A stretch of DNA of 64,000 nucleotides from the NCBI GenBank assembly GCA_945910005.1, contig OX246741.1, positions 41,031,180 through 41,095,179 of the forward strand, in the 5' to 3' direction. How positions within the stretch are numbered: the stretch's first letter is position 1; the number at the start of each line of letters is the position of its first letter. Shown here one piece after another: positions 1,555-63,457 of the stretch. Both the position numbers and the translations under genes were made by a program. This DNA is from Isoperla grammatica (taxonomy: Eukaryota > Arthropoda > Insecta > Plecoptera > Perlodidae). The notes beneath the pieces were generated by a model. The model had not been told where the DNA came from. It saw only the letters and a program-made list of their open reading frames with translations, and did no database searches.

Positions 1555-2352
1555 TGTAATTTTTCATATGCAAGAACAGTATTTTGGCTTCGCTAAAAAG
1601 CAAAGAAATAAAAGAAAAACGTTTTCCAGTCGAGACAAACACTTCCAACAATAGTTCCACATACATCCAGCCTTCAACTGTTGTACTAATACAACTACTA
1701 AACCTAGACTCACAACCGTAAATACAACTTACGCATCTGCACTTATTATTACCACACAATGTGAATGTTTAACATTTTACACGATTACACAAGTGTATAA
1801 TCTGTGTGCGTGGATGCGTAGGTGGGAGCGGTAGATGGAACATTCATTGTAATAGTATGATGTTGTGAAATGACGTTTCACTACTTTGTAGCGTCATCCT
1901 TCGAGGGTCTATAATTTGTATCATTACAATCTTTAAGCATGTATTAGTGAGGCGGGTGGTTATTGTAAGGTTGAATTTTACATAATTGTCGTTGCACATC
2001 GTCTTTTACTTCTAGCTAACATCTTGAATCTTGAAAATACCAAGGTTTGTATAAAGATAATCCCCCCTAGATGGATGAAATTACAATGAGCACCTAGCCT
2101 AGCCTGTATGACATCACTAATCGATGTAACTATTGCCGTAGCTCTAATAGCTCCATGGGAAGTAGCTATTTTATACTTATCTTATTCAGTTCTACAACGA
2201 AATGAATAGGAATAGGCAAATCAAATAATATTCTGACTTCTTCTGACCAAGGTCTACTGGATTTACTCCTGGCGGAGTAGGCGCTGCGCGCGCGCTACAA
2301 GCGATCTAGTGGACCTTGCTTCTGACTGGTAAGCGTCATCGCAATGTTTCTG

Positions 2353-3010
2353 TTCAGGGCACTAGCAACACCAAAAGACAACAATGGAACAAATGAATTG
2401 AACTGATGGACATACAATCAGCTGTCAAAATAATAAAAGTGCAACCATAGAAATAAAAACAAGTGTAGCAATTTAAGAGCGAAGGATACCTCTACGTCAA
2501 AAACCGCAGACAATTTTCATTTCTTAACAATATCTCAAGATTGAAACACAACATCAAAAATCTGAGACACCATAGCGCTGTGGTTTGGTAATCCCTACAC
2601 ACTGAATGATAAATATATTTAACGTTATCATCAGTATGACTGTGATGACGATTTCCTTAAATTACTAAGGAAATCGTTATCACAGTCATACTGATGATAA
2701 CGTTAAATAAATTTATCATTCAGTGTGTAGGGCTTACCAAACCACAGCGCTATGGTGTCTCAGATTTTTGATGTTGTGTTTCAATCTTGAGATATAATTA
2801 AAAAATGAAAATTTTCTGCGGTTTTTGACGTAGAGGTATCCTTCGCTCTTAATGATAGAGAACGACTAGTGAAAATTTAGTAGGTGTATTTGTTTGTTTT
2901 TTGTTTTGTTTTCCGAAGTCAGAAGAAATTATTTTTGACAGCTTGTTGTTTGTCCATCGATTCAATTCATTTGTTTCATTGTTGTCTGTTGGTGTTGCTA
3001 GTGCCCTGAA
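2353..3010. mobile_element. Foldback (palindromic) MITE-like element, about 660 bp
   Basis: Inner arms 2473-2660 and 2664-2852 are near-perfect inverted repeats meeting at a few-base centre. Outer arms (about 2353-2432 and 2930-3010) are also inverted copies but more diverged and unequally spaced. No transposase ORF is present. A small separate inverted pair (caaggtctactgga at about 2248 against tctagtggaccttg at about 2323) lies just to the left. Confidence 0.85.
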
Positions 3011-5220: not shown

Positions 5221-6385
5221 AGTCATCCTCTTCCTGGTTCTCAGTTTCCGCCTCCTCAAGGACTCAGTCCTGAACCCCATCCCGGTCTCTGCGCCCATGA
5301 GAGGGGACCCGTCAATGGTCGACGAGGACACATTGATGACTCCCGAGCCGGAGAGCGGCCCTTTCTGCGGCGTCGCCGTCGGGGCGATCTGGTTGAGCGC
5401 CGACTCCGAGATGGAGAAGTGCGAGAGCGGGTCACAGCTCGTAGGGGTCGCGTCCACCATCCCCTGGGGGACGCCGGAGACGCTCCACGGTCTGTCGCAG
5501 GCCTGGCGTCGCTTGGCGCGCATCACGACGTGCGGGGGTGAGCGCAAGGGGGACGTCTTGTCCCCTTGAGGGGTCACGTCCAGCGCGTCCGCAGACCCCG
5601 ACCGCGAGCACCCCAGGAGTATCTCCACCTGACGACACGTCGCGACGCTCCCGTTGAAGTCCTCCGACGACTGAGACTCTTTCTCCTCGTCAGAGTCGCC
5701 CGTCGTGTACTCCCCGCTCGCGTCGCAGCTGTCAACAGGTGGCAACGCGGACCTGTCGTCGCCCTGCAGGTGCACCTGCAACCACTCCTTGATCCTCGTG
5801 TGCTTCGCGTGGTTCGAAGACAACTTCTCGTCCCCGAATATCAGCGGTTCGAACACCCGAGCTGCCCGGATAGCCGCCGCCATTTTGTCGGGTGATGCCA
5901 CCATTTCCTCCGCTTGGATCACGAGTCTCTGAATAGACTCGCGACTGTTTCTTCTCGCACATATTTTATCTACATTTTTATACACCTCGTTGTTTTGATG
6001 GTGGCCGTTTGTCTCCACCGCGTTGTTAACATTTTGATTGTTTTCATAGACTAGTTGATGTTCCACACCCATCTCTGAGGTCTCGTCCGCGCTGAAGTCC
6101 AGCCGGACGACGAAGGAGCCCTTCTTCCCGTTGCGCGAGTGTTGTCGCAGTGACGTGGTTGTCTCGGAGGAAGAGCTCGTCTCGTTCTCTGCTTTGCCGC
6201 TAGGATCGTCGGCGCCGCACGTGAACGTCCACTCCTCCTCGGAAGATTCCTCCTGAGACTTCTCGTTCCCTGATCCGCCCGACGGACTCCCGGCTACTTC
6301 GCCCGTCTTCCTGGCGTCCTGCTCGGAGTCCGTGTCCAGGTGTTTGAAGTAGAACGTCGCGTAGTTCGGGGCCTCGCGGTTCGAC
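5221..6385 (-). CDS. klar: Exon C of KASH/Klarsicht-like protein: conserved pre-KASH region
   Basis: Large internal exon. Its first base completes a split AGG codon and 388 codons follow. The acceptor is GTTTGTTGCAG at 6386; the donor is GATGACT|GTGAGTAC at 5221/5220, phase 0. Visible blocks are YATFYFKHLDTDSEQ (about residues 8-22), an acidic run SQEESSEEEW (about 45-54), a helix SRESIQRLVIQAEEMV (about 147-162), RIKEWLQVHL (about 197-206), the acidic CDASGEYTTGDSDEE (about 220-234), and a basic tail SLRRRKLRTRKRMT at the end. The mix of short conserved helices and CDASGEYTT-like acidic segments fits the region before the KASH domain of insect Klarsicht; a nesprin is the alternative. The membrane anchor is not in this exon or anywhere to the left in the window, so at least one more exon lies outside. 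The ATG at 6072 is internal, because the frame is open without a stop back to the acceptor. Confidence 0.75.
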
Positions 6386-11684: not shown

Positions 11685-12049
11685 CTGTTAAAACTAGAAC
11701 CTCCTGCCCATCGCGTGGTCGATAAGACATTCTCCCCTTCCACCGACTTGGGACTGCCGATAACGAGCCTGTGCGGCGCGGCCGGTAAAGAAGCCGCCAC
11801 CCTGTCCTCCAGAGCTTGTATTTCCTCCCGCGAGACCACGTTGCGTCGCTTCTTGGAGCCGACCATGGTGCGCTCTAGTGGCGGACTCGTGTCCATCAGA
11901 CTAGGGGCGTCGCCGCCATCCTCCTCGCACGAGGCGTCGCCGTCGGCGTCGTCGGGGCGTCGGTCCACGGGGGAGGCGGCCTGGCAGAGGCGAGGGTACT
12001 TGCTGACGGGCTCCTCGTCACTCTCAGAGGCGCCGACCGAACCGGGACT
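11685..12049 (-). CDS. klar: Exon B of KASH/Klarsicht-like protein: acidic linker
   Basis: Internal exon of 121 codons plus two bases. It starts SPGSVGASESDEEP after the acceptor TTTGTTTCCAG and ends FN plus AG at the donor AACAG|GTAAATATT. The start phase (0) matches the end phase of the exon at 63110-63334. The two leftover bases match the one-base start of the exon ending at 6385, making an AGG codon. The peptide looks disordered and has an acidic stretch (DDADGDASCEEDGGD, residues 33-47). A basic cluster GSKKRRN at 64-70 could be a nuclear-localisation-like or membrane-proximal patch. A short charged helix SREEIQALEDRVAA follows at 73-86. No catalytic motif is visible. Codon use is GC-rich like the other two exons. 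It is inferred to be a spacer between the spectrin-like helix and the conserved C-terminal region. A plus-strand ORF over the same bases is a shadow. Confidence 0.7.
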
Positions 12050-19024: not shown

Positions 19025-19689
19025 CTCGTTTCACGTCTTCATCGTAATTGTTTTGTGCACATGCAGTCCACAGGTTAAAAAAACATAACCCATCATCAAG
19101 AATTTTACTTGCTCTATAATTTTCAGCTATGGTGGGTGAGGCGTTATCATTGGAACGTATCTTCAAATTATATAGTTTTGCATTTAATTAATTAGATTTC
19201 TAGTAACATTTCTTAATAATGTGAGTGGTTTACTTGTGGTACCCGTGTGATCAAGGTCGCGAGCTGAATCTATATTATAATATCAAGGATTTAATTAATA
19301 CTTGTATTGATGGTTCAACACTTGACCGTAGAAAGCGGTGCTCACTAGTTGAATAACGCTAACTTGATTGTTTATATTGATAAAACGTATATGCGCAAGC
19401 GCAACTAAAACTGTCAAGGCTCAAGCTGTACCTTGTCGGCGCAATGTTAGTTTCAACCAATGTTACCAGTTTAACAACGCCTGTGCATTAGTTCATTTTG
19501 ATGCCACCACGGAGTGCACATACAGTCTCTTATCTCAAGCTAACGTGTCCGGTATAACCGGTTTAGAGTGACTCTGACGTCACTCACAGGAGAAGTTAGC
19601 TTGAGCCACGTATATGAACCTACTACTTTGATATCCTCGTTTGCTAACTACTTGCTAAAACCAATTGTTGTTTGAAAACAACACATTTT

Positions 19690-20996
19690 CGTGCCGCGCG
19701 CTCTGTCACTATCTGTTCTCGTGCCGCGCTCTCTGTCACTATCTGTCCTCGTGAGGCCGTGCCCGCTGCAACCACCCGCAGCTGTCACTGTCTGTCCTCG
19801 TGCCGCGCGCTCTGTCACTATCTGTCCTCGTGCCGCGCGCTCTGTCACTATCTGTCCTCGTGAGGCCGTGCCCGCTGCAACCACCCGCAGCTGTCACTGT
19901 CTGTCCTCGTGCCGCGCGCTCTGTCACTATCTGTCCTCGTGCCGCGCGCTCTGTCACTATCTGTCCTCGTGAGGCCGTGCCCGCTGCAACCACCCGCAGC
20001 TGTCACTGTCTGTCCTCGTGCCGCGCGCTCTGTCACTATCTGTCCTCGTGCCGCGCTCTCTGTTACTATCTGTCCTCGTGCCGCGCTCTCTGTTACTATC
20101 TGTCCTCGTGCCGCGCGCTCTGTCACTATCTGTCCTCGTGAGGCCGTGCCCGCTGCAACCACCCGCAGCTGTCACTGTCTGTCCTCGTGCCGCGCGCTCT
20201 GTCACTATCTGTCCTCGTGCCGCGCTCTCTGTTACTATCTGTCCTCGTGCCGCGCTCTCTGTTACTATCTGTCCTCGTGCCGCGCGCTCTGTCACTATCT
20301 GTCCTCGTGAGGCCGTGCCCGCTGCAACCACCCGCAGCTGTCACTGTCTGTCCTCGTGCCGCGCGCTCTGTCACTATCTGTCCTCGTGCCGCGCGCTCTG
20401 TCACTATCTGTCCTCGTGCCGCGCTCTCTGTTACTATCTGTCCTCGTGCCGCGCTCTCAGTCACTATCTGTCCTCGTGAGGCCGTGCCCGCTGCAACCAC
20501 CCGCAGCTGTCACTGTCTGTCCTCGTGCCGCGCGCTCTGTCACTGTCTGTCCTCGTGCCGCGCGTTTGTCACTATCTGTCCTCGTGCCGCGCGCTCTGTC
20601 ACTGTCTGTCCTCGTGCCGCGCTCTCTGTCACTATCTGTCCTCGTGCCGCGTGCACTGTCACTATATGTCCTCGTGCCGCGCTCTCTGTCACTATCTGTC
20701 CTCGTGCCGCGCTCTCTGTCACTATATGCCCTCGTGCCGCGCTCTCTGTCACTATCTGTCCTCGTGCCGCGTGCACTGTCACTATATGTCCTCGTGCCGC
20801 GCTCTCTGTCACTATCTGTCCTCGTGAGGCCGTGCCCGCTGCAACCACCCATAGAGATGCTACTATGTCTATGCAACCACCCGCAGCTGTCACTATCTGT
20901 TCTCGTGCCGCGCGCTCTGCCACTATCTATCCTCGTGAGGCCGTGCCCGCTGCAACCACCCATAGAGATGCTAATACGTCTATGCAACCACCCGCA
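19690..20996. repeat. GC-rich 30/49-bp composite minisatellite with higher-order structure
   Basis: A 30-bp unit (CCGCGCGCTCTGTCACTATC plus TGTCCTCGTG) alternates with a 49-bp unit starting AGGCCGTGCCCGCTGCAACC. The 49-bp units start at 19754, 19863, 19972, 20141, 20310, 20479, 20827 and 20938. Spacings are 109, 109, 169, 169, 169, 348 and 111 bp, meaning 2, 2, 4, 4, 4 and about 10 intervening 30-mers before a diverged end. Because 30 is a multiple of 3, several frames stay open; these are not genes. Confidence 0.97.
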
Positions 20997-22231
20997 GCTG
21001 TCAACACGACACAGCGCATATCATTATCTCAGGCCAAACAAAGCGGTTATCTATCTTGACAACAATTAACTTCACTTTCTGATGCAGGTTTCACCGTGTT
21101 TGGCGAGCGACATCACGCGATACACGAGATCTGCCTGACTTTCCTTCAAGACACAGTTGACCCCACTTAGCGAGGTCACACTCGATCTATAGGCGTGACA
21201 TTGGTTACACGTTTAGAATCGATCAGTTGCTGAAACACCCGGATCTCTTTGCTGTTTATTATAAACCTATTTAAGAACAAACTATTTAAAATAGTGTCTA
21301 GATTATGTTTTAGAGTGACTTCAAGATACGGTAGAGAAAACAAAAACTTAACAAAATAGTCCTTTTCTAAGCTTATACCACAGATAACAAATTAACTACA
21401 CAGATAAGATAACAAATTAACTGTGTTATCTGTGCTTATATGTTGTTCGATTAAATATACCTTAAAGGTAGAATTTATTTTATTTATCTACATATTCATT
21501 AATTTAACGTCAATTCTACTTTATTAAAATTATTTGCAATGAAGACAAGATAATAATATGCCGGAAGGAAGTCTTCTCAAACAACACAACGAGATGAAAT
21601 CCCTCAAATCCCCATCTTCAGCCGGTAAATTCTATATACGTAATGATTGAATGATGCTGTGTAATTCGATCGAGAGGAACTACATTTTCAAGACAAATTT
21701 TGAGTTACAACTCAGAGGCATATAATTATACGTTGTTTCCGTTGTAATAACGGCTAAGAAAATGGAAAGAATATAATGTTTCAACAAACAATCGATAAAT
21801 CAGCTATACTATATGGGCAATATGCAATATGGACGAAACGTTGGATTTTCTCCACCTCTTGACACAGTTGTGACCGGAAAAACTCAAATGACATCGTAAG
21901 TTAACCTAAACAATATTTTCGTGATAAGATACGTTGAATACAGCGATAAATAATTAAATGCATATAGTTATTTATCGCCACTCCTTAGGTAGAGGAAGTA
22001 TACTTTCGTTTGTTTTTAATTTGTAGCTACATATTTATCAGTTACGAATATTAAAATTAGCAATTTTGAAATGTTAGAACAGTGTCCAAGTTCTTCTACC
22101 TGTGTTAGTCCTTGGACAAACGCCTTCGGACAGTACTTGTGACGTCATGTTTAAACGATGGGTCAAAACTAGACTTTGAATGAGAATAGTTGTGGGTATG
22201 ACTGACATTGCTTTAGATGTGGGAGAACCAA
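20997..22231. other. Unique-looking spacer between two satellite arrays
   Basis: AT-rich. A small inverted pair around TGTTATCTGTG (21380-21435) is present. No gene was recognised. Confidence 0.45.
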
Positions 22232-24453
22232 CACACGTGACAGGGTAGCAAACATGGCCACGCAGCGCAACCCGATGAAAGTAAGAAGCACACGATGCGA
22301 AGACAGCGTGACAGGGTAACAAACATGGCCACGTAGCGCAACCCGATGACAGTAAGAAGCACACGATGCGAAGACAGCGTGACAGGGTAACAAACATGGC
22401 CACGCAGCGCAACCCGATGAAAGTAAGAAGCACACGATGCGAAGACAGCGTGACAGGGTAACAAACATGGCCACGCAGCGCAACCCGATGACAGTAAGAA
22501 GCACACGATGCGAAGACAGCGTGACAGGGTAACAAACATGGCCACGCAGCGCAACCCAATGACAGTAAGAAGCACACGATGCGAAGACAGCGTGACAGGG
22601 TAACAAACATGGCCACGCAGCGCAACCCGATGACAGTAAGAAGCACACGATGCGAAGACAGCGTGACAGGGTAACAAACATGGCCACGCAGCGCAACCCG
22701 ATGAAAGTAAGAAGCACACGATGCGAAGACAGCGTGACAGAGTAACAAACATGGCCACGCAGAGCAACCCGATGAAAGTAAGAAGCACACGATGCGAAGA
22801 CAGGGTAACAAACATGGCCACGCAGCGCAACCCGATGAAAGTAAGAAGCACACGATGCGAAGACAGGGTAACAAACATGGCCACGCAGCGCAACCCGATG
22901 ACAGTAAGAAGCACACGATGCGAAGACAGCGTGACAGGGTAACAAACATGGCCACGCAGCGCAACCCGATGACAGTAAGAAGCACACGATGCGAAGACAG
23001 GGTAACAAACATGGCCACGCAGCGCAACCCGATGACAGTAAGAAGCACACGATGCGAAGACAGGGTAACAAACATGGCCACGCAGCGCAACCCGATGACA
23101 GTAAGAAGCACACGATGCGAAGACAGGGTAACAAACATGGCCACGCAGCGCAACCCGATGAAAGTAAGGAGCACACGATGCGAAGACAGCGTGACAGGGT
23201 AACAAACACGGCCACGCAGCGCAACCCGATGAAAGTAAGAAGCACACGATGCGAAGACAGCGTGACAGGGTAACAAACATGGCCACGCAGCGCAACCCGA
23301 TGAAAGTAAGAAGCACACGATGCGAAGACAGCGTGACAGGGTAACAAACATGGCCACGCAGCGCAACCCGATGAAAGTAAGAAGCACACGATGCGAAGAC
23401 AGCGGGACAGGGTAACAAACATGGCCACGCAGCGCAACCCGATGAAAGTAAGAAGCACACGATGCGAAGACAGCGTGACAGGGTAACAAACATGGCCACG
23501 CAGCGCAACCCGATGAAAGTAAGAAGCACACGATGCGAAGACAGCGTGACAGGGTAACAAACATGGCCACGCAGCGCAACCCGATGAAAGTAAGAAGCAC
23601 ACGATGCGAAGACAGCGTGACAGAGTAACAAACATGGCCACGCAGAGCAACCCGATGAAAGTAAGAAGCACACGATGCGAAGACAGCGTGACAGAGTAAC
23701 AAACATGGCCACGCAGAGCAACCCGATGAAAGTAAGAAGCACACGATGCGAAGACAGCGTGACAGGGTAACAAACATGGCCACGCAGCGCAACCCGATGA
23801 AAGTAAGGAGCACACGATGCGAAGACAGCGTGACAGGGTAACAAACATGGCCACGCAGCGCAACCCGATGACAGTAAGAAGCACACGATGCGAAGACAGC
23901 GTGACAGGGTAACAAACATGGCCACGCAGCGCAACCCGATGAAAGTAAGGAGCACACGATGCGAAGACAGCGTGACAGGGTAACAAACATGGCCACGCAG
24001 CGCAACCCGATGAAAGTAAGAAGCACACGATGCGAAGACAGGGTGACAAACATGGCCACGCAGCGCAACCCGATGAAAGTAAGAAGCACACGATGCGAAG
24101 ACAGGGTAACAAACATGGCCACGCAGCGCAACCCGATGAAAGTAAGAAGCACACGATGCGAAGACAGCGTGACAGGGTAACAAACATGGCCACGCAGCGC
24201 AACCCGATGAAAGTAAGCAGCACACGATGCGAAGACAGCGTGACAGGGTAACAAACATGGCCACGCAGCGCAACCCGATGACAGTAAGAAGCACACGATG
24301 CGAAGACAGCGTGACAGAATAACAAACATGGCCACGCAGCGCAACCCGATGAAAGTAAGAAGCACACGATGCGAAGACAGCGTGACAGGGTAACAAACAT
24401 GGCCACGCAGCGCAACCCGATGAAAGTAAGAAGTACACGATGCGAAGACAGAG
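22232..24453. repeat. 71/63-bp minisatellite
   Basis: About 32 tandem units of 71 bp (GTGACAGGGTAACAAACATG, then GCCACGCAGCGCAACCCGAT, then GAAAGTAAGAAGCACACGAT, then GCGAAGACAGC). About seven units lack 8 bp at the junction (GAAGACAGGGTAAC) and are 63 bp. A common A/C variant is GAAAGT against GACAGT. All three minus frames are open for more than 740 codons, because the unit has no minus-strand stop in any frame and 71 is not a multiple of 3. Confidence 0.97.
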
Positions 24454-32078: not shown

Positions 32079-33300
32079 ATTTATTTATTTATTTATTAAT
32101 CATTTCCATTTACTACAAAAGTGAATGGGGGTTGGCAGAAAAGAGCACAGCTCCAAACACCAGAGTGACTGCCAACCCATACTAAAATTAAAATATAATA
32201 ATGAACATAATACAAAATACAAAATATAAAATACAAAACAAAAAACATGAAAACATAATATGAATGAAAATATAATTATAAGATACAACTGTTAAATATG
32301 AAGTAAAAAAGAATAAAAAAATGAAAATTTACAAAACAATGTTTAAAAAATGCTCCGTTAAAGAGGCTTTGAAGACATCTAATGAGCGTGCCATCCTGAT
32401 CTTGAGTGGAAGAGAATTCCACGATTGACAAGTCCTATAATAGAACCCTTTCTGGTAGGCTACTGTTCTGGCAAAAGGTGGCCTGAACAATAGACCCCTA
32501 CCAAATTGGGCACTACGATTACAGGCTTGCAGTCTTACATATGGATCCAGGTTTGTCCTACCATTCAACATGCCCCACAAAAATTGCAGCTCTACTTTTT
32601 CCTGAATATTTCCAGAGATGGAATCTTCAATGATGCACGTCTTGCCGTAGCACTATGAGTGGTAAATTGCGACCTAGCAGCAATAAAGCGTGTAGCTCTA
32701 CTTTGGACACGCTCCAACTTCATCTTGTTGCTTATAGATGTTGGGTCCCACGCTGGGCAGCCGTAGACGAGATGAGGTCTAACGAGCGCTAGGTAAACAG
32801 CCCTTTTGGTGCTAGACTGAGCATGATGCAGGTGTCTAGCAATGAAATATAAATGCCTGGTGGCTTTGGCTCGTACTACTTCACAATGAGTGTTCCATTT
32901 TAGATCACTTGTAACAATTACACCTAGTAGTCTGACACATTTTTTCTCTGGAATAGGCAAGTTATTGATCAAATAACAACAAGGGAATGGATTCTTGGAT
33001 CTTGCAAATCGGATAGACATACTCTTTTGGGGGTTAATCTTCATTGATATTCTTGTGTCTGTTAACAATCTTCTACAAAGAGCAACAAATCAGTCTTCTT
33101 TTGAACCCAACATTTGCGGGCGTGCTTCTTGATTCGGAAATAGCTTCACCTTCGTGAGGATAGTCAAGCAAGGAGTCGCTTCCAAACAAGGAAAACATCT
33201 CTCCCACGGTTCTGCCACCTTTGCGTGAATCATCTGCGAATATCAGCGAACTGATTGTGTTTGGCGCAACATATGTACACATTACTCATGGCTGCTGGAT
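32079..33300 (-). pseudogene. 5'-truncated, frameshifted LINE reverse transcriptase fragment
   Basis: On the minus strand, 33068-32592 encodes the region after the RT catalytic core: INPQKSMSIRFARS, then VRLLGVIVTSDLKWNTHCE, then LVRPHLVYGCPAWDP. A second frame, 32580-32329, continues with FYYRTCQSWNSLPLKIRMA and ends in a stop. This order is typical of the C-terminal part of CR1/Jockey-superfamily non-LTR elements. Upstream, about 33282-33073 in another frame shows IFADD, resembling the RT YADD box, but it is eroded. A 3' tail of (AATA)n lies at 32079-32098. At least two frame breaks and the missing endonuclease end make it a dead copy. Confidence 0.8.
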
Positions 33301-34409: not shown

Positions 34410-34550
34410 AAGTTTTTGAAAAACGGAAATGTTTATTGGAACAAAGAAAAATTCATAACAGCATTATGAGTATTTTGTTCTAGTTTTGAGGCAATTTAAA
34501 ACCATTTAAAAGCAATTTTAACAGACCGACATCGGGTGTTCCTCAGGGTG
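34410..34550 (+). repeat. RT-like dispersed repeat, copy at the left edge of the 49-bp satellite
   Basis: About 42 bases starting at 34510 match 54391-54432 with six differences, covering NFNRPTSGVPQGG in one frame. Further upstream, 34415-34445 also matches 54268-54299 (TTGAAAA..GGAAAT..TATTGGAACA). The copy runs straight into the first satellite unit. Confidence 0.65.
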
Positions 34551-36645
34551 GGTGAGTTGGTTGGAAATACTCCTTAAAGATGAGGTGTTCCTCAGGGTGG
34601 GTGAGTTGGTTGGAAATACTCCTTAAAGATGAGGTGTTCCTCAGGGTGGGTGAGATGGTTGGAAATACTCCTTAAAGATGACGTGTTCCGCAGGATAGGT
34701 GAGTTGGTTGGAAATACTCCTTAAAGATGAGGTGTTCCTCAGGGTGGGTGAGTTGGTTGAAATACTCCTTAAAGATGAGGTGTTCCTCAGGGTGGGTGAG
34801 GTGGTTGGAAATACTCCTTAAAGATGAGGTGTTCCGCAGGATAGGTGAGGTGGTTGGAAATACTCCTTAAAGGTGAGGTGTTCCGCAGGATAGGTGAGGT
34901 GGTTGGAAATACTCCTTAAAGGTGAGGTGTTCCGCAGGATAGGTGAGTTGGTTGGAAATACTCCTTAAAGATGAGGTGTTCCTCAGGGTGGGTGAGTTGG
35001 TTGGAAATACTCCTTAAAGATGAGGTGTTCCTCAGGGTGGGTGAGGTGGTTGGAAATACTCCTTAAAGATGAGGTGTTCCGCAGGATAGGTGAGTTGGTT
35101 GGAAATACTCCTTAAAGATGAGGTGTTCCTCAGGGTGGGTGAGTTGGTTGGAAATACTCCTTAAAGATGAGGTGTTCCTCAGGGTGGGTGAGGTGGTTGG
35201 AAATACTCCTTAAAGATGAGGTGTTCCGCAGGATAGGTGAGTTGGTTGGAAATACTCCTTAAAGATGAGGTGTTCCTCAGGGTGGGTGAGTTGGTTGGAA
35301 ATACTCCTTAAAGATGAGGTGTTCCTCAGGGTGGGTGAGTTGGTTGGAAATACTCCTTAAAGATGAGGTGTTCCTCAGGGTGGGTGAGGTGGTTGGAAAT
35401 ACTCCTTAAAGATGAGGTGTTCCTCAGGGTGGGTGAGTTGGTTGGAAATACTCCTTAAAGATGAGGTGTTCCGCAGGATAGGTGAGTTGGTTGGAAATAC
35501 TCCTTAAAGATGAGGTGTTCCTCAGGGTGGGTGAGTTGGTTGGAAATACTCCTTAAAGATGAGGTGTTCCTCAGGGTGGGTGAGGTGGTTGGAAATACTC
35601 CTTAAAGATGAGGTGTTCCGCAGGATAGGTGAGTTGGTTGGAAATACTCCTTAAAGATGAGGTGTTCCTCAGGGTGGGTGAGTTGGTTGGAAATACTCCT
35701 TAAAGATGAGGTGTTCCTCAGGGTGGGTGAGGTGGTTGGAAATACTCCTTAAAGATGAGGTGTTCCGCAGGATAGGTGAGTTGGTTGGAAATACTCCTTA
35801 AAGATGAGGTGTTCCTCAGGGTGGGTGAGTTGGTTGGAAATACTCCTTAAAGATGAGGTGTTCCTCAGGGTGGGTGAGTTGGTTGGAAATACTCCTTAAG
35901 ATGAGGTGTTCCTCAGGGTGGGTGAGTTGGTTGGAAATACTCCTTAAAGATGAGGTGTTCCTCAGGGTGGGTGAGTTGGTTGGAAATACTCCTTAAAGAT
36001 GAGGTGTTCCTCAGGGTGGGTGAGGTGGTTGGAAATACTCCTTAAAGATGAGGTGTTCCTCAGGGTGGGTGAGTTGGTTGGAAATACTCCTTAAAGGTGA
36101 GGTGTTCCGCAGGATAGGTGAGTTGGTTGGAAATACTCCTTAAAGATGAGGTGTTCCTCAGGGTGGGTGAGTTGGTTGGAAATACTCCTTACAGATGAGG
36201 TGTTCCTCAGGGTGGGTGAGTTGGTTGGAAATACTCCTTAAAGGTGAGGTGGCCCTCAGGATAGGTGAGTTGGTTGGAAATACTCCTTAAAGATGAGGTG
36301 TTCCTCAGGGTGGGTGAGTTGGTTGGAAATACTCCTTAAAGGTGAGGTGGCCCTCAGGGTGGGTGAGTTGGTTGGAAATACTCCTTAAAGGTGAGGTGTT
36401 CCTCAGGGTGGGTGAGGTGGTTGGAAATACTCCTTAAAGATGAGGTGTTCCTCAGGGTGGGTGAGTTGGTTGGAAATACTCCTTAAAGATGAGGTGTTCC
36501 GCGGGATAGGTGAGGTGGTTGGAAATACTCCTTACAGATGAGGTGTTCCTCAGGGTGGGTGAGGTGGTTGGAAATACTCCTTACAGATGAGGTGTTCCTC
36601 AGGGTGGGTGAGCTGGTTGGAAATACTCCTTAAAGATGAGGTGTT
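34535..36645. repeat. 49-bp satellite with 147-bp higher-order units
   Basis: About 43 head-to-tail units built on GAGGTGTTCCTCAGGGTGGG plus GTTGGAAATACTCCTTAAA. Three variants recur: A (CTCAGGGTGGGTGAGTT), B (CTCAGGGTGGGTGAGGT) and C (CGCAGGATAGGTGAGTT). From about 34.9 to 35.85 kb the order C-A-B is repeated several times, giving a 147-bp higher-order repeat. Rare one- or two-base deletions occur (for example near 34755 and 35896). Confidence 0.97.
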
Positions 36646-47515: not shown

Positions 47516-50089
47516 GATATTGTGTTTGTTCGATCATTACAGGGTTGTTATTGCTGAATATCTAGAGGGTGTAAGTTATAAGAGCATACACTAACACTAT
47601 ACAGCTTAGAAAAGAGAGAGAATTCAATAATACACAATTAATTACCAGTTTGTTGTGTCGATATCGTTGCTGAATCCCCGAGCTTAGACCACAGACACAT
47701 ATGCATTCACATTCACGATACAAAAAAACATACTCAACTATAACACTTCAAATACAAAACTTATTTTAAATGGACATTATGCATAACACACGTTTTTCTT
47801 CCGGTTAATTTGCACACTTCACCCTCCCTCCATGTAATTGTCCGACGCACGACAGGTGTGAACTAAGTGCAGCCACTTGTTATTCAAACCAGCTCGGTAC
47901 ACTGGAAGTGAATTGAATAAAACCCACGGAGGGGGGGAGGGGGGTGACGTCATAATGCATTTGCGTGTCGGACTCACCTGCACGCTCAGTCTCAGCATCC
48001 GCAAAAAAAACCAACGCTTTAGATAAAGAAAGTTTTTTAGGTAACTTTGGGTACCTAACACGGTTCCCTATAATCATCGTTAAGAAAGCTTTTACCACAC
48101 TATCCATTCCAAGATCGCTTATGAATCATGGTCACATTTAGAAACCGAGTTAAATTTTGTAACCCATAGAATTATAAATAGCTTAATTTTAAAGGAGACG
48201 TTTGCGTGTTAATATTTTGTTAAACGCAACGTTAGAAAAAATACAGTTTCCAGACAAGGCTAGACCACACAATCAAATTAATAACGTAGTTATTATGGAA
48301 AGTGTTTGTTTCTATAAAACCTTTGGGGAAGGGGGTTTGAGGGCACGGGTTTTTAATTCAGTTTCGTCTCCAGCTCTTAAAAAAGCTTAGTAAAAATAAT
48401 ATAAACAAATCAATGAATATTTTACCCATATTAGTGAATACGAATTTGTGCAACAAAGGACTAACAATTCAGATAATAATAAAATAAATATATTTGTATT
48501 TGTAGTCTACCCATTCAGTTACATGAACTGGTTTTCTTTGCGGTACATTTATACAATTTATGACGTATTTATCGTTGCTATGACAGCTCCAAAGTAATCG
48601 TCAACGAAATATTATGCTTCTTGTTTTCTTCAAAATTATGTCGCACTGGGAAATTAAAAAAAAAAAGATTTGTTAATTTCTTGGTACTTATTTGTCTTTT
48701 CCATGTGTTTATAGCTCTCTTGATGGGATTAAGAGACTGGCCATGATTCTCTGACTGTTGTCAGAGGTTTGGTCGATAGAGGATCACACATTATACAGCT
48801 GCAACCGCTCTATTATACTAGATCGCCTTGGGGCAATGCATACGTATCTATTATTAAAATAAGGTAATAGTTAATTCACCCTTATCCCGAGCATGCAAGT
48901 GTTCACAAAGGCAAGGGTCCATCTGAAGGGACGAGTCACTCTAGCTTAGTTCTCTCATTGCCCACCCAGAGCGCAGATGATTTGTGTTGTGTCAGGGCCA
49001 TTCGAATCATTGACGCCACATTTCTCACTCGACACGCTATTTAGAAACTGGAAATATGACGGAGGTGTTTGTCGACAAACTAGAAACGCAAATGTAGAGA
49101 TAAGTTTGCTGTTTAGTATTAATTTTCTAAATTAAAATTAAAACCAAGCATTTTGTAGCGTCTATTTTTTCTTTTCATTTAAGCCTTGAATATGAGGTTT
49201 TTACACTTCTAATGGAGAATTATGTGCAGGTATTAAAATCAATTCAATTGTAACTACTCAAAGGATTGGAATAAAACATTTCAAACTAAATCTCAGTAGG
49301 CATGGGAACAAATTGTTATTTGTTTTTTTAAATTATCATTTTGTAGCGTTGCAATAACATATGTTTACTGATATAGTATCTAAAACCTAAAACGCTAAAA
49401 CAATCGTACCTCTAAGTATGCGGGATTCGAACCCACTGCCTTGGTTCCGACTGTGCAACGTTCGTGCATCCTCCCAATCAATGACTGATTGCCTATCTGG
49501 GGCTTGACGTGTTTACGAACAGGAGCCACCTAGATTCGAAGACGTTACCCATATAACTAGCTAGTAAGTTTACAACTCGGGGCCTCACGTAAAGACATCA
49601 CATCACGCAATCACAGTCAGTGAACTAGTTTGAGAACACACTCGAAGCAGTTCGACAAGTATAGTAAACGCGGACTTACACATCCAGTTGTTCGAACTAC
49701 TATCGGATTCAAAAATGAGTCCTTCGACTTTGAAAATTCGCACAAAAATGGGCAAGAGAGAAACCACTGTAAAATAGAGCGATCGTTCTTGGTTATATCA
49801 ATTTAATTTTAAAATTTGTTAAAGAGTACTGGAGCTATTTTATAGATGGAAAATACCTTAAAAGAGCAGTTTTCTAACGGTTTAGTACTTACTGATGTAA
49901 CAACAAATCACACAAGATGACATCAATAATTCAATGTAGGGATATTTTTAAGAATATAATACAATCATTTAAAATGTTTAGTATTGTACATTGTATAATT
50001 ATTCATTATTTTATTGACTGTTTTCTTATTTAAGAGAGACACGTTATTGAATCCGATAGTAGTTACCCACATAACACTTCCGCATGGGC
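47516..50089. other. Intronic DNA, little recognised
   Basis: AT-rich, with the possible SINE remnant near 49.4 kb. No conserved ORF. Confidence 0.4.
49418..49475 (-). mobile_element. Possible tRNA-derived SINE remnant
   Basis: The minus strand contains GTGGGTTCGAATCCCGC, a perfect B box, but the expected A box is only weakly matched (GGATGCACGAACG). It does not fold into an obvious intact tRNA. Confidence 0.35.
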
Positions 50090-50480
50090 ATTACAAGGCC
50101 CACGTATGGCCAGCCAGACGAAAACGCACGTGCCACATATGGCCAGCCAAGTGTGGCAATGACATGTTTTTGGCAGTGACCCCACGAATGGGCCATGCGT
50201 CTGGGCCTTACAAGGCAGAGACATGGCCAGCCAGATGAAAACGTCAGTCTCGCATCTGGCCAGCCAAGTGTGGCAGGGACTTGTTTTTGGCAGTGACCCC
50301 ACGTATGGGCCATGCGTCTGGGCCTTACAAGGCAGAGACATGGCCAGCCGGATGAAAACGTCAGTCTCGCATCTGGCCAGCCAAGTGTGGCAGGGACTTG
50401 TTTTTGGCAGTGACCCCACGTATGGGCCATGCGTCTGGGCCTTACAAGGCAGAGACATGGCCAGCCGGATGAAAACCTCG
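50090..50480. repeat. 117-bp tandem repeat, about 3.4 copies
   Basis: The landmark TGGCAGTGACCCC occurs at 50171, 50288 and 50405. Units contain GGCCCACGTATGGCCAGCCA-like and TGGCCAGCCA blocks that also occur in the 112-bp array at 52.2-53.0 kb. The open frames across it follow from 117 being a multiple of 3. Confidence 0.92.
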
Positions 50481-52215: not shown

Positions 52216-53045
52216 TGAAAACTGAAAACAGTTGTTTGCCAAGTCATGGCTAGCCGTGTGTGGAAAGGACATGGCTAGTAGCCGTCGTGCCACATACCGC
52301 TGAGCTAGGGTAAGACGCATCCGGCCCACGTATGGCTAGCCAGTTGTTTGCCAAGTTATGGCTGGCCATGAGTGGAAATAACAAGGCTGGCATCTGTCAT
52401 GCCACATACCGCTGAGCTAGGGTAAGACTCATCTGGGCCACGCATGGCTAGCCAGATGTTTGCCAAGTCATGGCTGGCCATGAGTGGAAAGGACAAGGCT
52501 GGCATCTGTCATGCCACATACTGCTGAGCTAGGGTAAGACGCATCCGGGCCACGCATGGCTAGCCGGTTGTTTGCCAAGTCATGGCTGGCCATGAGTGGA
52601 AAGGACAAGGCTGGCATCTGTCATGCCACATACCGCTGAGCTAGGGTGAGACGCATCCGGGCCTCGCATGGCTAGCCAGTCGTTTGCCAAGTCATGGCTG
52701 GCCATGAGTGGAAAGGACAAGGCTGGCATATGTCATGCCACATACTGCTGAGCTAGGGTAAGACGCATCCGGGCCACGCATGGCTAGCCGGTTGTTTGCC
52801 AAGTCATGGCTGGCCATGAGTGGAAAGGACAAGGCTGGCATCTGTCATGCCACATACCGCTGAGCTAGGGTAAGACGCATCCGGGCCACGCATGGCTAGC
52901 CAGTCGTTTGCCAAGTCATGGCTGGCCATGAGTGGAAAGGACAAGGCTGGCATCTGTCGTGCCACATACCGCTGAACTAGGGTAAGACGCATCCGGGCCA
53001 CGCATGGCTAACCAGATGTTTGCCAAGTCATGGCTGGCCATGTGT
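52216..53045. repeat. 112-bp tandem repeat, about 7 copies
   Basis: The landmark TGAGCTAGGGTAAGAC recurs at 52301, 52413, 52525, 52637, 52749, 52861 and 52973, an exact 112-bp spacing. Each unit has the palindrome TGGCTAGCCA and the near-palindrome ATGGCTGGCCAT. A solitary related stretch (GACGCATCCGGCCCACGTAC plus GGCTAGCCAG) is at about 50806-50835. Diverged sequence with the same words continues to about 53200. Confidence 0.93.
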
Positions 53046-53599
53046 GGCTGGGATATGGCCCTCTTATGCTAGTCATGAATATAAAGTTGCATGGCTAGCC
53101 TTATCTGGGCCAGATGATGCCCATGCACAGTTTGCCAGACGCATGGCAGCCTGGTGTGTGCCTTACATGGCCCAGGCTATGGTCAAAATCGTGTGCTACA
53201 TGGGTACTGCTCCATCAAACACATGGATGAATCACGCATATGTCCAGTCCAATCCGATCTAACCTTAACATGGAAATCTCTCTTCTAATTGGCAAAGGCC
53301 GCAAGGACAACATTACTATAGAATTGAAGTTAAGTTAGTTAATTAAAATAAATTACCTTCACTCGCTATTCATCAGGCCATGTATTTATAGCTGTGTTAG
53401 CTTTGTTCTGTAATTCAATGCAGGTACACCAACCAACAGTTACTAGTTAGTACTTTATGGCTTTGTATTTTGTACCTATTTGCATCACAGAACCAGGCCC
53501 ACATAACGGTTGTTCCGCTACGATTGGTTGCTTGTTTGTTTGTTTGTTATAAATAACTGGTAAAACAGATTTGTTATTGAGTGCAAAATTCCACTGACT

Positions 53600-60400: not shown

Positions 60401-62594
60401 CAGCACTGAGCCCATGCCCGACCTTGGGGGCTAAAGACGTATAAAATGAGGCTTGAATGGGGAAATGAATGCAACGAAATGTCTGACGCGTCGCGTGCAG
60501 GTTTACTTCCAAACATTTGCATCGTCTCGTGAGGACTTACACATTAGTAGCTGGGTAAATGCTTTTATACGCTTTTGTTATTTAAATGATTATACGCCTG
60601 GGTGCACAAGTTTTTGATAGAACCCCTTCTTAGAAATTTTCCCATTTCCACGTACGAGTACAATTATTCGTATATTAAATTATAATTCCTTACCTCAAAA
60701 GCAATCAGTCATTCATTCATTCATGCAGTATAGTAACAAAACTATGGCTCAAAGCACCCTTAGCATTTTTTTTAGTAGGTAGGCCTACTGAATACCGTAT
60801 TCGTATCGATTTGTCTGACTATATTAAACAAACGAGCCACTATATCGATCTAGTCGTATCTTATCTATACACAGATGTTGATTCAACTACCGGATAGTGC
60901 TGACGAAAGTAAATGCAGCAGTCTTACTTTATATAACCAACGTACACCTAAATATGGGTACTGAACTGAGTCAACTCCAAACAATTTGTAAAATATAATA
61001 GTCACTTTGTTCAAGGTCATATCGAGTCCTTCACCTTGTCCAAACTAATGACCGGTATTATGACTTCCAACTAAATGTTTAGGTTTATATAACTTGACGT
61101 CAACGGTTCTGATTGGTGGTTGCCATGGTAGAAACAAGTTCGCGGACACTTGTACATGTAGTTACAAGTACAAGACAAGGCATAAGCAATATCAATGCTA
61201 ACCTATTTAAAATAATTGCTCATATAAAATAGACGTATACACACAAATGTTCAACATTTGTGATCGTGATCATAAACAGCATTCAAACAGAAACCCAGAG
61301 CTCCACTTTTAGTTATATTGTTTTATCCGAATCTAAAACTATAACAGTAAAGTGTATTGTACATTACACTTCTTGATATATTTACTTTGAAATACACATT
61401 CAAATAAAAGCACAGATTTTATGCTATATACGCACCGGTAATATGAAACATTAGCATAATTCTTTATTACATATTCATTATTGATGGTGATGTATAAGTT
61501 ATTATACATAATATAGCAACCAAAGGAGGAATTTCTTTATGAGGCAAATAAACTTAATATAATATACTCCATACATGATTAACATCTACTTAAAATGTTC
61601 AATTAAAATTCGCAGACGTAAACATGTTCGATAATTGCATCCATCCTATTACAGCGTTGCCACGTTTGCCGCGCTTAAATTGCAACAACGTGCAACGTGA
61701 CAGAACTCTCAATAGGCTTGACCGTGTACGTAAATATGACTCAGAATAATAATGGTTGCGTAAGAAGTGACAATACCAGTGCTCCCTTTCGTCGTGGGAA
61801 AGATAAAACAACTTCAAGGCCGAACGTATGAAGCCAACATGTCTAGGTAAAGCAAAGCTAGAATTGGGTATTTTTTAAATGCAATTTGTAACAATTTTAT
61901 TTCATAATTTGACGTGACTCTTTTACGTGTCCAAAGAATGCTACAACTGAAACCACCAGTAAAACCATCTTAAAGATGGGGGTGAAAGAGATGACCGAGA
62001 CACATTGAAAGGTAATTGACAAAATTCTTTCAATATTGTTAGTTTCCCAAGTTATAAACATTATTTCATTTTCTCTTGTTTTTGTGTTTGCCCAAATAAA
62101 GAACTACGCAAGGGTCACCTTGTACTGTTTGCCCTGCTAGTGCTTGTATAATCTCCAAAACTAACAAAACATTATAAAAAGGCCACATCAAATTATGCAT
62201 GTGCCTATGATCAATAACTATTTCCCCCTCATCTTTACGTTAAATTTAAATAAAAATAAATAAGCACATTCGTATTTATTGCCTGATTTTCAGGGGGAAA
62301 CATTTATATCGTTATTTGCTTTTCTTTTCACTGCAGCCTATTTACTTTCTGAGGTATCTACGGTGGCCAGCAGTGTATTATATATTTATTGTCACTAGGC
62401 AATCACAGGTTATGGCTCTACAGTAAATGCGGGAATCCATCCAAGCACATTACAGCAGTTTACACAAAAGAAAAACAACTGTTACAAGACTATTATCTTC
62501 TGAATGAAATCTAACATTGAGCGTTTACGTGGGGATCCCACTAGAGAAGAGAACAGGGTAAGCGTCTCCAACCTAGGGCTGAACCATTAAGATA
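54436..62594. other. Intronic DNA left of the splice-site minisatellite
   Basis: AT-rich. ORFs stay under 115 codons and none resembles a known family. No arrays until 62595. A minor-isoform exon or enhancer here could not be recognised by eye. Confidence 0.4.
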
Positions 62595-63132
62595 GGTACT
62601 CACATTGTTGCCTAGCTTGTCAGCAGTATCATTATAACAGTGTACTCACATTGTTGCCTAGCTTGTCAGCAGTATTATTATAACAGTGTACTCACATTGT
62701 TGCCTAGCTTGTCAGCAGTATTATTATAACAGTGTACTCACATTGTTGCCTAGCTTGTCAGCAGTATTATTATAACAGTGTACTCACATTGTTGCCTAGC
62801 TTGTCAGCAGTATTATTATAACAGTGTACTCACATTGTTGCCTAGCTTGTCAGCAGTATTATTATAGCAGTGTACTCACATTGTTGCCTAGCTTGTCAGC
62901 AGTATTATTATAGCAGTGTACTCACATTGTTGCCTAGCTTGTCAGCAGTATTATTATAGCAGTGTACTCACATTGTTGCCTAGCTTGTCAGCAGTATTAT
63001 TATAGCAGTGTACTCACATTGTTGCCTAGCTTGTCAGCAGTATTATTATAGCAGTGTACTCACATTGTTGCCTAGCTTGTCAGCAGTATTATTATAGCAG
63101 TGTACTCACATTGTTGCCTAGCTTGTCAGCAG
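62595..63132 (-). repeat. 46-bp minisatellite spanning the exon A 5' splice site
   Basis: About 11.7 head-to-tail units with an exact 46-bp period. On the minus strand each unit carries 23 bases identical to the end of exon A, through GGCAACAAT, followed by 23 intronic bases starting GTGAGTAC. The rightmost copy is the real exon-intron junction. Donor G positions are 63109, 63063, 63017, 62971, 62925, 62879, 62833, 62787, 62741, 62695, 62649 and 62603. Units fall into two blocks: the left ones read ATAACAG and the right ones ATAGCAG on the plus strand. Extending exon A through the first intronic unit meets TAA six codons in (V S T L L stop). Confidence 0.95.
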
Positions 63133-63334
63133 CGAGAGTCTCGATGTAGTAGGTCCACTCCAGCGAGCGAAGGTAGAGGTGATGCCAGCGACTCTCCAGG
63201 CGTTGAGCGACGCGCGCCGCGTCGGTAGCGTCGTAGCGGCGTCGAGAACGCGCGTCAGTGTGGGAGATACGTTCACACAGCTTCACCACCGAGCAGACTA
63301 TCTTGCCATGGGACTCTACGTCACGCTGTAGCAC
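63110..63334 (-). CDS. klar: Exon A of KASH/Klarsicht-like protein: spectrin-like helix
   Basis: Internal exon of 75 codons in phase 0, starting VLQRDVESHGKIV and ending AADKLGNN. The acceptor is a pyrimidine-rich run ending TTGTTGTAG just right of 63334; the donor is AAT|GTGAGTAC at 63110/63109. The peptide is helical and charged. It carries LCERISH near residues 19-25, RRRYDATDAARVAQRLESRW near 31-50 and LYLRSLEW near 53-60. The RW...LRSLEW pattern is typical of spectrin-type repeats close to the C-terminus of insect KASH proteins (Klarsicht, nesprin/MSP-300). These sit in the outer nuclear membrane and couple nuclei to motors. The exon is GC-rich against AT-rich flanks. Both of its splice sites are copied in neighbouring tandem duplications. 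It cannot be the first exon, because the codon before GTG is TAG within the acceptor. The family assignment is from memory of the fold and motifs; exon status is firmer than the name. Confidence 0.7.
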
Positions 63335-63457
63335 CTACAACAAACACAACACGGTACAGTTAGACGGGTGTCTGTATCACTCAGACTATCTTGCCATGGG
63401 ACTCTACGTCACGCTGTAGCACCTACAACAAACACAACACGGTACAGTTAGACGGGT
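63294..63457 (-). repeat. 76-bp direct duplication across the exon A 3' splice site
   Basis: Bases 63294-63369 recur at 63382-63457, offset 88 bp and identical by eye. Each copy has 41 exonic bases and the acceptor ending TTGTTGTAG. The upstream copy would start an exon at 63422 with the same first 13 codons (VLQRDVESHGKIV), then a TGA in that frame. It is therefore a decoy or alternative acceptor rather than a frame-preserving one. Confidence 0.93.

Follow-up and report, generated by a model that had tools for sequence, protein, structure and literature searches.

Tandem repeats that lie across the borders of exons have been described in several lineages. Canestro et al. 2002 is reportedly the source to be cited for those of lancelets, known as mirages; the human 6-16/IFI6 gene is said to carry a donor-bearing minisatellite at an exon end, and intron gain by tandem duplication is said to go back to Rogers 1989. 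According to PMC3087553 and PMC3902484, mirages are tandem repeats over exon-intron boundaries, at either edge of the exon, with units of 10-160 bp, ranging from 10-72 bp in Adh3 to 150-160 bp. They occur in Branchiostoma Adh3, in the globins BflGb6 and BflGb9, in TnC and in PGBD5; they are unstable in length, their edge copies are excluded from homogenisation, and splicing is reportedly undisturbed. In IFI6, two downstream repeat units are reported to be used, giving rise to three mRNAs (PMC4526556). Human segmental-duplication genes contain variable internal tandem repeats at exon-intron boundaries (mean 30-bp units, 4 copies; PMC2812944), and intron gain by tandem duplication has been described for the potato RdRp gene (PMC4974935). 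Among the open-licence titles and abstract openings searched, no report of a splice-site array at an exon boundary in an insect was found.

The window analysed here, a stretch of 64,000 nt from the genome of Isoperla grammatica, contains an exon, E1, which carries tandem arrays at both of its edges:

63110..63334, minus strand: exon E1, 225 nt, phase 0-0, encoding VLQRDVESHGKIV...ADKLGNN (seven relatives; exon end aligned)
62596..63132, minus strand: 46-bp minisatellite over the E1 5' splice site, with 12 cores and 11 full units (TRF and motif count)
63108..63109, minus strand: GT of the innermost donor, AAT/GTGAGTAC (slash, exon-intron boundary), with which the protein is kept (sequence; boundary in relatives)
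62602..62603, minus strand: GT of the outermost (twelfth) donor (sequence)
63294..63457, minus strand: 88-bp tandem duplication over the E1 3' splice site, 1.9 copies, 100% alike (TRF)

E1 is read from 63334 to 63110 and ends in AAT/GTGAGTAC. The donor array runs on from 63132 down to 62596 in units of 23 exonic plus 23 intronic bases, with a period of 46, 11.7 copies and 99% matches according to TRF. The sequence AATGTGAGTAC occurs 12 times on the minus strand, every step being 46, and the 31-nt core CTGCTGACAAGCTAGGCAACAATGTGAGTAC (23 exonic and 8 intronic nt) is the same in all 12 copies, each of which carries AAT/GTGAGTAC. The first intronic bases are found at 63109, 63063, 63017, 62971, 62925, 62879, 62833, 62787, 62741, 62695, 62649 and 62603. 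An earlier note on this DNA had proposed 12 tandem donors, each in its natural exonic context, and both proposals are borne out by these cores and their spacing; its unit of exactly 23 plus 23 bases holds for 11 units and fails for the twelfth, in which the last 15 nt have diverged. From the innermost to the outermost unit, mismatches to the consensus number 0, 0, 0, 0, 0, 0, 1, 1, 1, 1, 2 and 11: units 1-6 are identical, one change is common to units 7-10, unit 11 has two, and unit 12 is identical over 31 nt with mismatches at 11 of its last 15. That this tail is a diverged copy is suggested by 9 of 15 identical bases, a level reached by 1% of intron 15-mers; the 15-nt intronic tail of the 46-bp unit has no unchanged copy in the unique flank.

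The array has one matching place in the 874-Mb assembly, at C9:41093775-41094311, within a contig of 56.8 Mb. Copies in a near-identical array could have been collapsed or invented during assembly, and the draft assembly of one lancelet mirage was aberrant (PMC3087553). The E1 array, however, is short (approx. 0.55 kb), lies inside this large contig with many similar arrays close by, and contains ordered variants (units 7-10, 11 and 12) which mark positions, and an artefact is very unlikely. The repeat as such is far outside what chance would yield. That it overlaps a splice site is less remarkable: random placement of the 11 merged arrays of at least 71 bp in the window covered at least one of the six splice junctions in 40% of trials, and at least two in 19%.

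The E1 array is a mirage, i.e. a minisatellite across an exon-intron boundary. Its repeats span the boundary, its units contain the splice signals, and it displays concerted evolution from which the edge copy is excluded, so that an edge copy set apart is common to the lancelet arrays and this one. It is unlike them in its location in an insect KASH gene, in its 12 identical donors, in the repeats at both edges of E1, and in that 6 of the 12 exons found in this gene are hit. With 6-16/IFI6 it shares repeat units that bear several splice donors at an exon end, but the outer donors of IFI6 keep an open frame, as inferred from the isoforms, whereas those of E1 lead to TAA in 11 of 11 cases. The repeats of human segmental-duplication genes are likewise minisatellites at exon-intron boundaries; unlike the E1 array, they are reported to alter splicing or create introns, and belong to recent paralogues (PMC2812944). 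It is the size of the E1 array, its taxon and the company of other ladders that are notable, the mirage kind itself being already described.

Pfam and PDB searches with E1 alone gave no match. Seven proteins, including those of Blattella and Diploptera, match E1 with 58-63% identity (E 3e-20 to 2e-16). Directly past the end of E1, five of the seven continue with V-S, one ends and one continues otherwise, as judged from the proteins only; such read-on is expected if a gene predictor hits a GTNAGT-type donor, and this places the native donor at copy 1. Matches to E1 in a Caballeronia sequence (L001) and a viral contig (L002), one each, were taken as chance. The remaining exons needed here are the following:

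11685..12049, minus strand: exon E2, 365 nt, phase 0 to 2, first exon found beyond an intron of 51,060 nt
5221..6385, minus strand: exon E3, 1165 nt, in frame after E2, with donor ACT/GTGAGTAC
L014:9090-9344, minus strand: KASH exon (profile match, PF10541)

With the three joined exons E1-E3 as query, at least 37 homologues were found among the 7997 candidates scored, at least four of them with a precomputed KASH domain. Ten of these homologues, which are predicted proteins and not transcripts, were aligned: E1 is directly joined to E2 in seven and absent in the other three. A further six exons downstream and three upstream were found in the window's contig, bringing the number to 12 in all, and there may be more exons of this gene, e.g. 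within the 29 kb between E5 and E6. E1 is flanked by introns of about 128 kb upstream and 51,060 nt downstream, provided that no exon was missed. The most downstream exon found, approx. 124 kb downstream of E1 and approx. 61 kb outside the window, encodes a KASH domain and a stop (PF10541, 3.1e-20, 72.6 bits, cut-off 23). It is assigned to the same gene as E1 since homologues P0031, P0046 and P0047 span these exons. The KASH protein invoked in the earlier note is thereby confirmed from beyond the window, and the position of this exon accounts for the lack of a convincing match between human KASH tails and the window. The gene may be klarsicht- or nesprin-like; no names of either type appear among the homologues listed for the E1-E3 query. 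In a tree, the window's protein is nearest by path to one further sequence, followed by proteins of termites and cockroaches, and lies outside the latter.

Arrays across an exon edge are present in 6 of the 12 exons, of which E-1 and E0 lie upstream of E1:

E-1, C9 41227334-41228198 (L054): at least 7 acceptors, 144-nt steps
E0, C9 41222707-41223864: 14 acceptors, 89-nt steps
E1: 2 acceptors and 12 donors
E6, 204-kb region (L009, L012, L014; window offset 80000): 7 acceptors, 68-nt steps
E8, same region (L009, L012, L014; window offset 80000): 5 acceptors, 162- or 156-nt steps
KASH exon, 204-kb region: 10 copies of the coding end with its stop, 147-nt steps, no splice junction

Besides the E1-donor ladder there are thus six exon-edge arrays, five at acceptors, one where the coding sequence ends and none at a donor; none of the seven is confined to coding sequence. 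Use of an outer acceptor leads to a stop in 4 of 4 cases at E8, in all three read (of 13) at E0 and in 2 of 6 at E6. At E-1, one of the two outer acceptors read is open in frame, namely the first outer copy, which would add 48 residues. Because outer uses at E6 and E-1 are partly free of stops, a poison design is not common to the ladders of the KASH gene, and the occurrence of edge arrays in 6 of 12 exons suggests a general mutational process, not a device for E1. The open copy at E-1 also bears on whether an intron is being born, with outer copies coming to serve as new exon ends or as small exons by the tandem-duplication route that is called Rogers-type here. Such gain and the E1 array have in common a tandem duplication across an intron-exon boundary, and intron birth has been proposed for mirages (PMC3087553) and described for the potato gene (PMC4974935). 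At E1, in contrast, no new intron is seen, each outer donor passes through TAA, and the 46-bp unit is devoid of an AGGT proto-splice site, all of which makes this a most improbable account of the array.

At the upstream edge of E1, the last intronic bases are 63423 for the outer acceptor and 63335 for the inner one. From the outer acceptor the frame reads VLQRDVESHGKIV and then a stop; from each of the 11 outer donors the added frame reads VSTLL and then TAA as the sixth codon, exactly where the earlier note had placed it. The E1 protein is therefore kept by the innermost acceptor-donor pair only. The U1 duplex energy is -6.9 kcal/mol for all 12 donors, equal to that of the lone E3 donor (E2 donor, -8.3), so that position, and not strength, must choose among them. 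Predicted accessibility is low throughout (0.0035-0.051), with 0.018 for the first donor and the highest value for the twelfth. Of the window's 4282 sense GTs, 96 reach an energy of -6.9 kcal/mol. One such site, at 61435, is no more than 2 kb away from the array, so that the ladder is not the sole good donor nearby.

How position may choose is indicated by PMC9225289. Under exon definition, splicing in each of five minigenes bearing two identical strong donors went exclusively to the upstream site, and in a human compilation upstream choice is commoner for near-equal donors between long introns. Unfiltered human events favour the downstream donor (about 60%, in all four architecture classes), and with both identical sites weakened, two minigenes with larger exons mainly skip the exon. 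For acceptors, upstream preference is reduced under exon definition, which renders the acceptor ladders less predictable.

On these grounds we infer that the donor at 63109 is probably the one used, and that the other donors of the array are near-neutral. A young minisatellite would have started as a tandem duplication across the E1 exon-intron boundary of an insect KASH gene and grown by slippage or unequal exchange, with the copies beyond E1 all sitting in the 51-kb intron. Lying between introns of about 128 and 51 kb, E1 would be recognised by exon definition, which would pair the innermost acceptor, 63335, with the innermost donor, 63109; the outer acceptor and the remaining 11 donors would mostly be ignored. 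Occasional use of an outer donor would lead to the stop codon and probably to decay, and the array would persist as near-harmless, not as a regulator. This corresponds to an alternative given in the earlier note, namely that the array is tolerated as the first donor wins, and it is the best supported one given the long introns, the conserved exon end and the minigenes; of that note's interpretation the donor ladder is confirmed, and the tuning of productive splicing by copy number finds no support. That note is silent on mirages and IFI6 as described cases and on the duplicated acceptor of E1; the arrays at other exons lie beyond the window. Several observations count against the preferred reading. 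Selection against the outer donors, all of which are intact, is not visible, for which the array may be too young. The highest predicted accessibility falls on donor 12, the E1 donor is without a G at position -1, unfiltered events favour downstream donors (PMC9225289), and downstream repeat donors are reported to be used in IFI6 (PMC4526556).

Two regulatory readings draw on the same data. In the first, a fixed fraction of transcripts would use donors 2-12, meet TAA and decay, the copy number setting the dose of KASH protein. The 11 intact outer donors that score like the first, the TAA in 11 of 11 extensions and the precedent of repeat donors used in IFI6 (PMC4526556) speak for such a rheostat, but the first donor is favoured by exon definition, the upstream site alone is used in minigenes whose two donors are strong and identical (PMC9225289), and the other ladders of the gene, which lie at acceptors and in two cases have some outer uses without a stop, display no common poison design; we regard a rheostat as improbable. 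In the second, for which we see a slighter chance still, 12 U1 sites would help to define E1 between its long introns, or prevent premature polyadenylation early in the 51-kb intron. A spacing of 46 nt may accommodate many U1 particles, and a donor without G at -1 is compatible with such a need; none of the six other edge arrays, five at acceptors and one at a coding end, is at a donor, which argues against a platform for U1.

The surroundings of the KASH gene are rich in arrays. Those with a period of at least 10 cover 15.4% of the 204 kb around it, as against 2.2% for the surroundings of 30 kinase loci and 4.4% for those of 10 other kinase exons. Enrichment at junctions is not established for the nine exons in the 204 kb, since at this high local density 4 of 17 junctions within arrays are not above chance (2.3-2.5 expected, P 0.24-0.27). 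For the same exons, arrays touching a junction number 4 (1.6-1.8 expected, P 0.07-0.09) and arrays touching exons 5 (1.8-2.4 expected, P 0.03-0.09 depending on the cut-off), in a test that leaves out the three upstream exons and has three exon coordinates one base off.

Among the 30 best kinase loci, small arrays were found inside the match in two and an array across a match edge in none, these loci being mostly long open frames, and the edge of a domain match not being that of an exon. Arrays at most 40 bp outside the match edge were noted at two loci (L045, L052). A second sample comprised 10 of the next 11 stop-free matches, one having been omitted because it is probably paralogous to its neighbour. 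One of these 10 (L057, contig C5) features a 58-bp array of 7.2 copies (141-552) across the donor-side match edge of a kinase exon (HGVVKLCDFGFARML), with GTAAGT readable in 5 of 7 units; ten partial kinase exons do not suffice to derive a rate. At L055, a two-copy 38-bp repeat lies just beyond the match edge.

With twelve donors alike in both sequence and context, site strength drops out as a variable, and a cross-exon proximity rule becomes testable in an animal instead of a minigene. If the first donor alone is used, E1 would be a strict natural demonstration of this rule; if not, the poison-donor idea would be strengthened. The ladders of the KASH gene, together with one in an unrelated kinase gene, bring to insects a class reported, in the papers cited, only from lancelets, from human genes and from one gene of potato. 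Their clustering is relevant to the ways in which introns and the ends of exons evolve. A more tentative proposal, and one that we hold to be rather less probable than its negation, is that minisatellites arise preferentially at exon edges in Isoperla grammatica, with many splice-site ladders across the genome of the type found here, where they reach 12 donors and as many as 14 acceptors. If so, these ladders would amount to a natural collection of identical splice sites in competition, with spacing and copy number known, from which the cross-exon rule could be read in vivo, and some may be en route to new exons or in-frame protein repeats.

Other repeats were noted in the introns of the gene. 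An array of 82 copies of 68 bp, with 79 sense GTRAGT motifs, lies deep in the 128-kb intron (C9 ~41111949-41117477, i.e. window-relative 80770-86298, L005/L010); as a candidate for a second donor ladder it was set aside, no coding exon having been found adjoining it. Large intronic minisatellites occupy window positions 19689-21003 (units of 30, 109 and 169 bp), 22236-24451 (71 bp), 34535-36645 (49 bp), 50085-50476 (117 bp) and 52229-53047 (112 bp). An open frame at 32595-33089 on the minus strand may encode something akin to the C-terminal part of a non-LTR reverse transcriptase, and a long inverted repeat at about 2350-3010 of the window, read by eye, resembles a foldback element.
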